In this document: positions 41,063 to 45,804 of the stretch, piece by piece
How the letters are laid out: every line of letters starts with the position of its first letter
How positions within the stretch are numbered: the stretch's first letter is position 1
Origin: Rubellimicrobium sp.
GTDB lineage: Bacteria > Pseudomonadota > Alphaproteobacteria > Rhodobacterales > Rhodobacteraceae
Assembly (NCBI GenBank): GCA_019454835.1
Contig: JACFNP010000014.1
Coordinates: forward strand, 1-64,000
DNA length: 64,000 nucleotides
Reading direction: 5' to 3'
The notes under the pieces: generated by a model
Databases searched by the model: none
The model's input: only the letters and a program-made list of their open reading frames with translations
What the model was told of the DNA's origin: nothing
Made by a program: the position numbers and the translations under genes

Positions 41063-41686
41063 TCAGGTCGCCCCTGGCCAGTTGCGCGCCGCGATGTCGG
41101 CGAAGGCGAAGAGGTTGAAGGCCACATGCGCGGCGATGCCGGGGCCAAGCACCCCGGTTCGCAGCCGCAACGCCATCCACACCGCGCCCATGGCCGCCGC
41201 GCCGATGACCAGCCCTGCGGTGCCTGCCGGGCTTGCGAGGCCGCGCGCGAATCCCCAGCTCACATGCCACAGCGCGAACAGCGCCCAGGCGACTACCATC
41301 CCCTCGCGGTCGGGGGCGGGGAGAAGGGCGCCGCGCCAGAACATTTCTTCCGCCGTGCCGTTGACCAGCGCCATCACGGCCACCGGAACCAGCAGGATCG
41401 CCGGAAAGCCGCTGTCGCCCAGCACCCCCAGCGCCAGCCAGGCCATCGCCACCACCGGCACGAAGGCCAGCGCCGCCAGCAGGCGCGGCGGGCGGGCATG
41501 GGCCAGCAGCGCCGCGCGATCCGCCCCCGACAACGCCCGCCACGCCAGCGCGCCGATCAGCGCCCAGTACAGCACCAGCGCCGCGACGACGCCGGGCAGG
41601 GGGCCTGCCCAGCGTGTCAGCCAGTGGACCAGCCCCGCGAACACCGGCAGCGCCCCCAGCATGACAAGGGCCAGCCGCCAGTCCAT
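41063..41686 (-). CDS. CPBP-family intramembrane metalloprotease
   Basis: A 207-aa membrane protein with about six to eight hydrophobic helices. The CPBP (Abi/CAAX) motifs are present: EEMFWRG near residue 114 (motif 1, EExxxR), FALWHVSW near 138 (motif 2, FxxxH) and HVAFNLFAF near 190 (motif 3, HxxxN). Family members act as CAAX-like or regulated intramembrane proteases. The substrate is unknown. Its ATG shares the T of the universal stress protein stop (TGATG), so the two are co-translated. Confidence 0.85.
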   Translation of the reverse strand: MDWRLALVMLGALPVFAGLVHWLTRWAGPLPGVVAALVLYWALIGALAWRALSGADRAALLAHARPPRLLAALAFVPVVAMAWLALGVLGDSGFPAILLVPVAVMALVNGTAEEMFWRGALLPAPDREGMVVAWALFALWHVSWGFARGLASPAGTAGLVIGAAAMGAVWMALRLRTGVLGPGIAAHVAFNLFAFADIAARNWPGAT

Positions 41687-42426: not shown

Positions 42427-43446
42427 TCAGCCGCGCAGCAGGCCGACGATGTCGTAGGTCTGCTTCAGGATCGGCGCCGCGATCTCGCGGGCGCGTTCGG
42501 CGCCGCGTCCGAGGATGCGGTCGATCTCGGCGCGGTCGCCCATCAGGCGGGCCATTTCGGCGCTGACCGGCGCCAGCCGTTCGACCGCCAGATCGGCGAG
42601 CGCGGGCTTGAACACCCCCCAGCCCGCGCCCGGATATTGCGCCAGCACCGCCTCGGGGGTGATGTCCGCCAGCCCGGCATAAATCTCGACGAGGTTCTTC
42701 GCCTCGGGCCGCCCCGTCAGGCCCGCGGCGGTCTCGGGCAGGGGTTCGGCATCGGTGCGTGCCTTGCGGAATTTCCGCGCGATGGCGTCGGCGTCGTCGG
42801 TCATGTTGATCCGCTCCATGTCGGATTCGCCCGATTTCGACATCTTCTTCGTGCCGTCGCGCAGGTTCATCACCCGCATCGCCGGGCCTTCGATCACCGG
42901 CTGCGTCTCGGGGAAGAAGTCGATCCCGAAGTCGTGGTTGAACTTCTGGGCGATGTCGCGGGTCAGCTCGACATGCTGCTTCTGGTCCTCGCCGACCGGC
43001 ACATGGGTGGCGTGGTAAAGCAGGATATCGGCGGCCATCAGCGAGGGATAGGCGAACAGGCCCAGACTCTGGGCCTCGGCGTTCTTTCCGGACTTCTCCT
43101 TCCACTGCGTCATGCGGTTCATCCAGCCCATCCGGGCGACGCAGTTGAAGATCCAGCCCAGCTCCGCGTGCTCGCTGACCTGCGCCTGATTGAAGAGGAC
43201 GGAGCGTTCGGGGTCGATCCCGGCGGCCAGAAACCCCGCCGCCACCTCGCGCGTCGCATCGGCCAGATGCGCCGGGTCCTGCCAGACGGTGATCGCGTGC
43301 AGGTCGACGACGCAGTAGATCGTCTCGAAGTCGGTATCCTGATAGGCCACGAAGCGCTTGATCGCGCCGAGATAGTTGCCAAGCGTCAGCCCGCCCGAAG
43401 GCTTGATGCCGGAAAAGACACGGGGGGTAAACTTCTGGTCGGTCAT
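42427..43446 (-). CDS. trpS: Tryptophanyl-tRNA synthetase
   Basis: A 339-aa class I aminoacyl-tRNA synthetase that charges tRNA-Trp. The HIGH-like signature is [15 protein letters not shown] near residue 16, and the KMSKS loop is [11 protein letters not shown] near 205. [20 protein letters not shown] and [11 protein letters not shown] are also conserved. Full length. It is divergent from the rhomboid-like gene. Confidence 0.96.
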
Positions 43447-43527
43447 GCTCGGCCCTTGGGGAAATGCTGTGGCAATGCGCGCCCGGCGGGCTTAGCCATG
43501 GGGCGAAAGCAGGTCAAGGAACAGCCC

Positions 43528-44238
43528 ATGCCACAAGGCCGCCGATCCGCCAGCCCGTTCAACGCCATATCGCCGGTGGTGCTGGCGCTTGCCGCCGTCA
43601 TGACGGTGATCGAGCTGGGGTTCATGCTCGGCGCCTCGGGCGTCATCGGCGGTCGCGCGGGCATCGGCTGGCGCATGGCGGCGATCCAGGACTGGGGCTT
43701 CTCGCCGCTGGTCTGGGACCAGGTCGTGACCTGGGGCAACACCGCCCCGCGCCTGCTGGCGCGGTTCGTCACCTATGCCTTCGTCCACGGCTCGTTCACC
43801 CATGCGCTGTTCGCGGTGGCGATGCTGCTCGCGCTGGGCAAGTTCGTGGGCGACGTGTTCCGTCCATGGGCGGTGCTGGCGGTGTTTCTGGGCGGGGTGC
43901 TCACCGGCGCGGTGGTCTTTGCGCTGGTCATGCCGCCGCAGCGCTATCTGTTCGGCGCCTATCCCGGCGTCTATGCGCTGATCGGCGCCTTCACCTGGAT
44001 ACTCTGGGCGGGTCTCGGCGCGCGCGGGCTGAACCGGCTGGCGGCGTTCCGGCTGATCGGCTTCCTGCTGGTGCTGCAACTGGCCTTCGCCGCCATCGGC
44101 CCGCTGATCGGCGGCAGCGGCGTCGACCTGGGGTTCATTGCCGAACTGGCAAGTTTCGCCATGGGCTTCGCGCTGTCGGTGGTGGTGTCGCCCGGCGGCT
44201 TTCGCGCCCTGCAGGCCCGGTTGCGCAGCCGCAACTGA
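43528..44238 (+). CDS. Rhomboid-fold membrane protein lacking catalytic residues
   Basis: A 236-aa protein with six predicted membrane helices in a rhomboid arrangement. ATG 43528 is preceded by AAGGA (43516-43520). Active rhomboids use a Ser in GxSG and a His in the last helix. Here the matching sites read FGAYPGVYALIG (Ser replaced by Tyr) and ELASFAMGFAL (His replaced by Phe). The usual HxxxN of helix 2 reads HALFA. It therefore looks like a pseudoprotease, perhaps a membrane-protein chaperone like iRhoms and Derlins. It is divergent from trpS and convergent with murJ. Confidence 0.8.
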   Translation: MPQGRRSASPFNAISPVVLALAAVMTVIELGFMLGASGVIGGRAGIGWRMAAIQDWGFSPLVWDQVVTWGNTAPRLLARFVTYAFVHGSFTHALFAVAMLLALGKFVGDVFRPWAVLAVFLGGVLTGAVVFALVMPPQRYLFGAYPGVYALIGAFTWILWAGLGARGLNRLAAFRLIGFLLVLQLAFAAIGPLIGGSGVDLGFIAELASFAMGFALSVVVSPGGFRALQARLRSRN

Positions 44239-44259: not shown

Positions 44260-45804
44260 TCAGCCGCGCCGCATCGCCCGGCGCAATTCGTCGGGCCGGA
44301 ACGCCCCCAGCGCGAATCCTGCAGCAAAATAGACCGCCGCCCCCGTCGCCACCAGCAGCGCCAGCGCCCCGTAGCGCCAGCCGGGCACCAGCAGCCAGCC
44401 GTCGAGGCCCACCGCCAGCCCGCGCAGCACCAGCACCATCGCCCCCGCCGCCGCCACGATCCGCCACAGCCGCGCCCGCAGCCGGGCGTCGGTCTGCGCC
44501 GCCTCGCCCAGCCCGCGCGACCCCAGCCACAAAAGCCCCGCCATCGCCCAGGCGGAAAGAGTCATCCCCCAGGCCGCCGCCGACCAGCCGATCACCAGCC
44601 CCAGCCCCAGCGCGACGCCGACATTCATCACCATGGCGACCAGCGCATAGCGGAACGGGCGCCGCGTATCCTCGCGGGCATAGAACAGCGGCTGGAGCAC
44701 CTTCTGCAGCACGAAGGCGGGCAGCCCCGCGCCGTAGATCGCGAGCGCAAGCGCCGTCGCCTCGGCATCCGCGGCCCCGAACGCCCCGCGCCCGTAAAGC
44801 ACCGAGACCAGCGGCCAGGCGATCGCCATCAGCGCCGCCGCCGCCGGGATCGTCAGCGCGAAGGCGAATTCCGCCGCCCGGTTCAGCGCATCTCGCCCGC
44901 CCGCGACATCGCCCGCGCCCAGCCGCCGCGACAGTTCCGGCAGCAGCACCGTGCCGACCGCGACGCCGACGACGCCCAGCGGCAGTTGATACAGCCGGTC
45001 GGCATAGACCAGCCACGACACCGCGCCCTCGGTATAGCTGGCGATCTGCCGCCCGACGATCAGGTTGACCTGCACCACGCCGCCCGACAGCACCACCGGC
45101 GCCGCGATCACCAGCAGGCGCCGCACCTCGGGCGTAAGCCGTGGCCGGGTCAGGCGCGGCGCATAGCCCAGCCGCGCCGCCGCCGCCCACATGAAGCCGA
45201 ACTGCACCACCCCGGTGACCGGCACCGTCCACGACAGCGCCAGCCCCATGTCCCAGCCCGCCAGATGCGCGAGCAGCATCGCCGCGATGAACATGAGATT
45301 CATCAGCACCGGCACCGCTGCGGCTTCGGTGAACCGCCCGTGGCTGTTCATGATGCCCGAGATCAGCGCGACGAGCGAGATGAACAGGATATAGACGAAG
45401 GTGATGCGCCCGTAGCCCACCGCCAGATCGAAGCGCGCGTCGCCCGCAAAGCCGCTCGCCATCGCCCAGACCAGCAGCGGCATCAGCAGCGTGCCCAGCG
45501 CGGCGAACAGCACCAGCACCGCCGACAGCCCCGAAAAGGCGTCGCGGGCGAAGGCGTCGGCATCCTCGCGCGATTCCAGCTTGCGCGCGTAAAGCGGCAC
45601 GAAGGCCATGTTGAACGCGCCTTCGGCAAAGAAGCGCCGGAACATGTTGGGCAGCGAGAAGGCCACGTTGAAGGCATCGGCCATCGCCCCGGTGCCGAGG
45701 AAGCCCGCGATCATCACGTCGCGCAGGAATCCCGCGCCGCGCGACAGCAGCGTCCACAGCCCCACGGTGACGACCCCGCGAATGAGGCGGATCGGTTCGG
45801 CCAC
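44260..45804 (-). CDS. murJ: Lipid II flippase MurJ
   Basis: A 514-aa polytopic protein of the MVF/MATE superfamily, with about 14 helices, that flips lipid II to the periplasm. Typical segments are LLSRGAGFLRDVMIAGFLG, FNVAFSLPNMFRRFFAEGAFN and FYAREDTRRPFRYALVAM. GTG 45804 is the probable start, with AGGA six bases upstream; it overlaps no coding part of glnD, whose stop is at 45807-45809. The much longer open frame upstream is antisense-phase to glnD and is not used. Confidence 0.94.
   Translation of the reverse strand: MAEPIRLIRGVVTVGLWTLLSRGAGFLRDVMIAGFLGTGAMADAFNVAFSLPNMFRRFFAEGAFNMAFVPLYARKLESREDADAFARDAFSGLSAVLVLFAALGTLLMPLLVWAMASGFAGDARFDLAVGYGRITFVYILFISLVALISGIMNSHGRFTEAAAVPVLMNLMFIAAMLLAHLAGWDMGLALSWTVPVTGVVQFGFMWAAAARLGYAPRLTRPRLTPEVRRLLVIAAPVVLSGGVVQVNLIVGRQIASYTEGAVSWLVYADRLYQLPLGVVGVAVGTVLLPELSRRLGAGDVAGGRDALNRAAEFAFALTIPAAAALMAIAWPLVSVLYGRGAFGAADAEATALALAIYGAGLPAFVLQKVLQPLFYAREDTRRPFRYALVAMVMNVGVALGLGLVIGWSAAAWGMTLSAWAMAGLLWLGSRGLGEAAQTDARLRARLWRIVAAAGAMVLVLRGLAVGLDGWLLVPGWRYGALALLVATGAAVYFAAGFALGAFRPDELRRAMRRG

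Follow-up and report, generated by a model that had tools for sequence, protein, structure and literature searches.

Rhomboid pseudoproteases have been described mainly in eukaryotes, where they comprise the iRhoms and the Derlins. The targets of iRhoms are client proteins and not the enzymes, and AarA becomes inactive if it is given a proline just before the serine site, where iRhoms have one (PMC3149277). For bacteria, a non-proteolytic role is reported for YqgP of Bacillus subtilis, an active enzyme which serves as an adaptor of FtsH, and this role was described as without precedent among prokaryotic rhomboids (PMC7231995). The catalytically dead variant S288A of YqgP still presents MgtE to FtsH, and the adaptor role requires an unobstructed active site (PMC7231995). 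Our literature search, with most subscription journals outside its reach, gave no description of a bacterial rhomboid subfamily that is dead throughout. Likewise, we found in the literature on rhomboid pseudoproteases in Alphaproteobacteria nothing on a dead clade in the slot between trpS and murJ, no work linking a rhomboid with these two genes and no mutant phenotype in roseobacters. Here we analyze such a gene in a stretch of 64,000 nucleotides from Rubellimicrobium sp. (contig JACFNP010000014.1), henceforth called the window.

A rhomboid gene between trpS and murJ

The gene is an unbroken open reading frame of 236 codons at position 43528-44238 on the forward strand with the sequence AAGGA 5′ to its ATG. 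It is flanked by trpS (42427..43446) and by murJ (44260..45804, start codon GTG at 45804; PF03023, 327 bits), both on the reverse strand. The preliminary description of an intact gene between trpS and murJ is thus borne out. The gene lies head-to-head with trpS and tail-to-tail with murJ. Since it is divergent from the former and convergent with the latter, it shares an operon with neither of them and the neighbors therefore give no function for it. The arrangement is widespread: of 67 loci tested, all have trpS next to the rhomboid gene and 61 have a detectable murJ. The gap between trpS and the rhomboid gene (43447-43527) has only 81 bases, and the two divergent genes may thus share a promoter region. 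Two genes beyond trpS the window carries a member of a second intramembrane protease family, a CAAX/Rce1-like protein with EExxxR and HxxxN motifs (41063-41686, reverse strand; PF02517, 50.9 bits). Of the loci compared, just one (L134) showed a gene resembling it.

The encoded protein of 236 amino acids matches the Pfam Rhomboid family PF01694 with 45.8 bits, compared to a curated cut-off of 22.6. The NCBIfam equivalogs for rhombosortase and GlpG gave 18.7 of 84 bits and 15 of 250 bits, respectively. We modeled the structure with AlphaFold2 on an alignment of 52 orthologues (A1). The model (pLDDT 93.8, pTM 0.88) has six membrane helices (TM1 16-36, TM2 90-110, TM3 113-134, TM4 145-165, TM5 171-190 and TM6 202-220), an L1 loop from residue 37 to 89 and a C-terminal helix from 224 to 234. 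Basic residues at both ends suggest that both termini are cytosolic. In a comparison with solved structures GlpG gave a Z score of 18.6 (rmsd 2.9 Å over 177 residues) and iRhom1 a Z score of 18.8 (3.7 Å, 203 residues), so that these two are tied as best solved match; iRhom2 follows with 17.2 and the Derlins with 8 to 10. The rhomboid fold proposed in the preliminary description is therefore confirmed by the structure prediction. When the PDB was searched with the single protein by phmmer no rhomboid was matched, whereas a profile search did match one. With the GlpG-type proteases (MEROPS S54, PF01694) the family shares the six-helix fold, the L1 loop, the GxxxG motif of TM6 and the equivalents of Gly199, Gly209 and H145.

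The former active site and newly conserved residues

The catalytic positions were assigned with two mappings. In the first the A1 profile was laid over active alphaproteobacterial rhomboids, in the second the family profile was matched to Haemophilus influenzae GlpG (2nr9) in the PDB. Both place a Tyr/Phe column of the family over the serine of GxSG (GLSG in 2nr9), Pro146 over the glycine following this serine, Ala96 over the asparagine of HxxxN and an acidic column, Glu206 in the window, over the catalytic histidine (H254 of GlpG). More precisely, WVADLAGFxxG lies over WEAHLGGFxxG of the active alphaproteobacterial rhomboids, and in 2nr9 the acidic column falls on the histidine of NAAHISGLIVG. 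The former GxSG motif of the window is Gly143-Ala144-Tyr145-Pro146 (43954..43965, codon of Tyr145 at 43960-43962), the former HxxxN motif extends from His92 to Ala96 (43801..43815, codon of Ala96 at 43813-43815) and Glu206 is encoded at 44143..44145, all on the forward strand. In terms of GlpG, Ser201, Gly202, Asn154 and His254 are all replaced.

The tyrosine and the alanine had been recognized before, and both assignments hold. The histidine, on the other hand, had been thought to be replaced by the phenylalanine of ELASFAMGF, which is wrong. This residue, Phe210, is located four residues past Glu206, and it is not a replacement because phenylalanine is also found in 11 of 12 active genes of the sister clade described below.

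It had been proposed to check whether the replacements are conserved among relatives. This is indeed the case. A set of 174 orthologues, in which most genera have a single representative and named species were added, shows these four replacements repeatedly, and the pattern is therefore not due to chance. At the serine position we find phenylalanine in 82, tyrosine in 79, tryptophan in 5, methionine in 3 and threonine in 2 sequences, and leucine, histidine and serine in one each, that is, an aromatic residue in 166/174. The column after it is proline, again in 166/174. The histidine column (n = 173) contains aspartate (123), glutamate (47), asparagine (2) and glutamine (1) and thus an acid in 170 sequences and never a histidine. 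The asparagine of HxxxN is valine, alanine, glycine or serine in nearly all of the 174 orthologues and never asparagine. The sole serine at the serine position belongs to L103 (G059), where it is paired with aspartate at the histidine and serine at the asparagine position. As this lone sequence has no histidine, the dyad is present in none of the 174 orthologues.

We also considered active sites of other composition. A serine/histidine pair elsewhere in the fold had been named as a possible objection, and we found no conserved serine that is a good candidate; the only one conserved in at least 60% is S217 (58/80) at the end of TM6. A pair of Glu29 and Asp/Glu206 as an aspartyl-type site was rejected as well, since Glu29 is invariant in the active sister clade, too, and hence older than the loss of catalysis. 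Judged by sequence, the family has neither the catalytic serine on TM4 nor the catalytic histidine on TM6 of the rhomboid intramembrane serine proteases (S54), and we infer that proteolytic activity is absent. The former active site is probably filled by the aromatic residue and the proline. For this clade the name given in the record WGR63770.1 of Paracoccus ferrooxidans, "rhomboid family intramembrane serine protease", is thus misleading.

Besides the losses there are gains. Arg79 (43762..43764, forward strand) is present in 171/174 orthologues and is methionine or serine in the active sister clade; it is aligned with what we take to be R137 of GlpG. Lys105-xxx-Asp109 at the end of TM2 (43840..43854, forward strand) are clade-specific charges, with lysine in 159/174 and glutamate or aspartate in 155/174, while the active alphaproteobacterial relatives mostly have serine or threonine and arginine at these positions. 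The C terminus carries a PGG(W/F) turn followed by a basic amphipathic helix (44191..44235, forward strand), which was not seen in active relatives, GlpG included, and contains a conserved arginine (R233, 165/171). Arg79, Lys105, Glu109, Trp48 and Asn12 are, together with this C-terminal module, among the positions that were changed and then fixed in the dead clade. This is the pattern of a changed function and not of decay.

The comparison with the eukaryotic pseudoproteases reveals likeness and difference. Like the dead clade, the metazoan iRhom1 and iRhom2 form a conserved subfamily with a dead rhomboid fold, and they too have a proline in the turn of GxSG. However, their proline stands before the serine site (GPx; PMC3149277) and that of the dead clade after it (GxYP), iRhom1 retains the histidine (AHISG), and the iRhoms have a long N-terminus and the iRhom homology domain. 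Both are missing from the protein of the window, which has no more than 236 residues and whose TM1 already starts at residue 16. The location of the proline on the other side of the serine site is an apparent convergence, and the tree of bacterial genes suggests that the dead clade arose independently. The Derlins share the non-proteolytic rhomboid fold and the GxxxG motif of TM6, which is kept in the dead clade (first glycine, G209, 160/173; second glycine, G213, 173/173), with SxxxG in the window copy. Their WR motif is not found, as Arg79 occupies the place of the arginine but residue 78 is not a tryptophan; a separate Trp48-Arg49 of the dead clade stands earlier in L1. The p97-binding SHP box of the Derlins would have no bacterial partner, and at the sensitivity used a sequence search retrieved no Derlin.

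Distribution, origin and selection

The gene is present in 133 of 149 Rhodobacteraceae genomes searched; any match was obtained in 140, and seven of these were excluded as active rhomboids or too weak matches. It was not seen in the other 16 genomes, some of which are incomplete, and is thus dispensable in some lineages. Among 385 alphaproteobacterial genomes scores above 300 bits are confined to Rhodobacteraceae, with 69 bits being the best score outside. In the 25 loci read outside this family serine, histidine and asparagine are all kept. Most genomes also carry an active classical rhomboid. In the window genome this is the only other rhomboid (L001, G000:C52:29992-30432; 103.7 bits), which has GASG and the catalytic histidine. 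In six genomes of 98-100% completeness, however, the dead gene is the only PF01694 rhomboid over the cut-off.

Some minor observations concern individual genomes. In P. ferrooxidans the annotated order is trpS, rhomboid, murJ and glnD, with the rhomboid product named serine protease, and this block is located on a replicon of 1.46 Mb listed as plasmid. The gene is present on five replicons of Paracoccus that are listed as plasmids, and in P. denitrificans it is located on a so-listed replicon of 1.73 Mb. In these cases core genes are found on a secondary replicon (L246, CP038202.1; NZ_CP141053.1). One orthologue, L236 (G032:C51), has an in-frame TGA, so that this copy is possibly defective or wrongly assembled. 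Long open frames that seemed to imply fusions were read as upstream antisense read-through in DNA of high G+C content.

In a tree of 68 rhomboids the dead genes form one clade (support 100/99), and active Rhodobacteraceae rhomboids form its sister clade (100/96). The topology also holds without the six key columns (100/98 and 98/95). The sister clade (L102, L104-L112, L120 and L121) comprises the closest relatives of the dead genes, with which it shares Glu29 and Arg49. All its catalytic residues are intact, that is, HxxxN, GASG (GSSG in one) and the catalytic histidine, and its members are without Arg79 and the C-terminal PGG helix and mostly without Lys105. Three of these active genes, L106, L107 and L108, are found in the trpS-murJ slot (for L107 only trpS was seen). 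Orthologues with a normal dyad had been regarded as evidence against a dead rhomboid. Such genes do exist at this locus, but they belong to a separate clade and therefore date the loss of catalysis and do not refute the loss itself. With their full dyad in the same slot, L106-L108 could be useful as natural controls. With a single dead clade and an active sister clade of which three members share its slot, catalysis was probably lost only once, which is the simplest account. When all slot genes are held together in the tree, this is not rejected (AU p 0.209). The genes may have descended in place at the trpS-murJ slot; an older duplication fits equally well.

The ratio dN/dS is between 0.025 and 0.24 in 13 of 14 close pairs; for the window and its nearest relative it is 0.45, where dS may be underestimated at the given G+C content. 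Furthermore, in an alignment of 52 diverse members 12 columns are invariant and about 40 more nearly so. By these measures the gene is under strong purifying selection. Rhomboid pseudoproteases are generally characterized by a dead dyad that purifying selection keeps throughout a subfamily, and this is found here. That the gene is intact and has been kept for a function other than proteolysis, as first proposed from the window, is now strongly supported by the single clade, the selection, the new invariants and the conserved synteny.

Possible functions

As dead or inactivated rhomboid folds are known to bind membrane clients, binding of clients without cutting is the most likely role. The membrane-protein binding or quality control suggested in the preliminary description is plausible in view of the fold and of these precedents. 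From the sequences, the model and the analogy to known systems we consider it rather probable that the protein is a dedicated catalytically dead bacterial rhomboid which binds membrane proteins without cutting them, perhaps as an adaptor. The protein would still engage transmembrane segments of its client laterally, as other rhomboid folds do. No cleavage would follow, since the dyad is missing and the turn of the former active site now holds a proline and an aromatic side chain. The client could then be stabilized, assembled or handed over, and the conserved C-terminal helix is likely to serve for docking or as an element at the membrane surface. To name FtsH, for instance, as the partner would be a guess by analogy with YqgP. 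YqgP is likewise a bacterial rhomboid and would share the catalysis-independent function; its dyad, however, is intact and its N-terminal domain is cytosolic, and neither such a dyad nor such a domain is present here. The aromatic residue at the serine position, set against the open site needed by YqgP, argues against the same binding pocket. A more specific version is that the family is a dedicated counterpart of Derlins and iRhoms, which arose independently in Rhodobacteraceae as a protease-independent client receptor and whose C-terminal helix docks FtsH or another membrane factor. This we propose only tentatively. With active sisters in the slot and no other rhomboid in some genomes, these bacteria offer a tractable system for finding out what a rhomboid fold does without cutting.

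Alternatively, the protein could be a brake on the cell's own active rhomboid protease, acting in a dominant-negative manner by substrate competition or hetero-oligomerisation. A possible target, L001, is at hand in the window genome as in most others, and the iRhom of Drosophila was initially taken for an inhibitor of rhomboid signaling (PMC3149277). Yet iRhom itself turned out to act on substrates and not on the enzyme (PMC3149277), and the six near-complete genomes without another PF01694 protein over the cut-off make a role purely as a brake unlikely.

Still less probable is a site rebuilt for other chemistry, in which Asp/Glu206, Arg79 and the aromatic residue 145 would catalyze a reaction or bind an ion or a lipid head group. 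The acid and Arg79 are indeed nearly invariant, and the active sister clade has neither. But aspartate and glutamate swap freely (123 to 47), which is unusual for a catalytic acid, there is no conserved nucleophile, and the aromatic residue and the proline at the former serine and glycine suggest a filled site. Co-variation between positions 79 and 206 is uninformative because exceptions are too few; one sequence has neither residue.

The preliminary description had alluded to MurJ, the lipid II flippase, and the frequent adjacency of murJ would fit a chaperone or assembly factor specific to this protein. The convergent genes are not co-transcribed, though, and in six related genomes trpS directly adjoins murJ with no rhomboid between, so that the adjacency of these two does not depend on the rhomboid. 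As active members of the sister clade occupy the same slot, too, we regard the link to MurJ as unsupported and very improbable.

Least probable of all is a decaying or structurally relaxed relic carried along by its conserved position, for although the slot members L103, L115 and L117 are very divergent and one genome (G032) has the in-frame stop codon, the low dN/dS ratios, the invariant columns and the new invariants missing from active relatives all speak against it.
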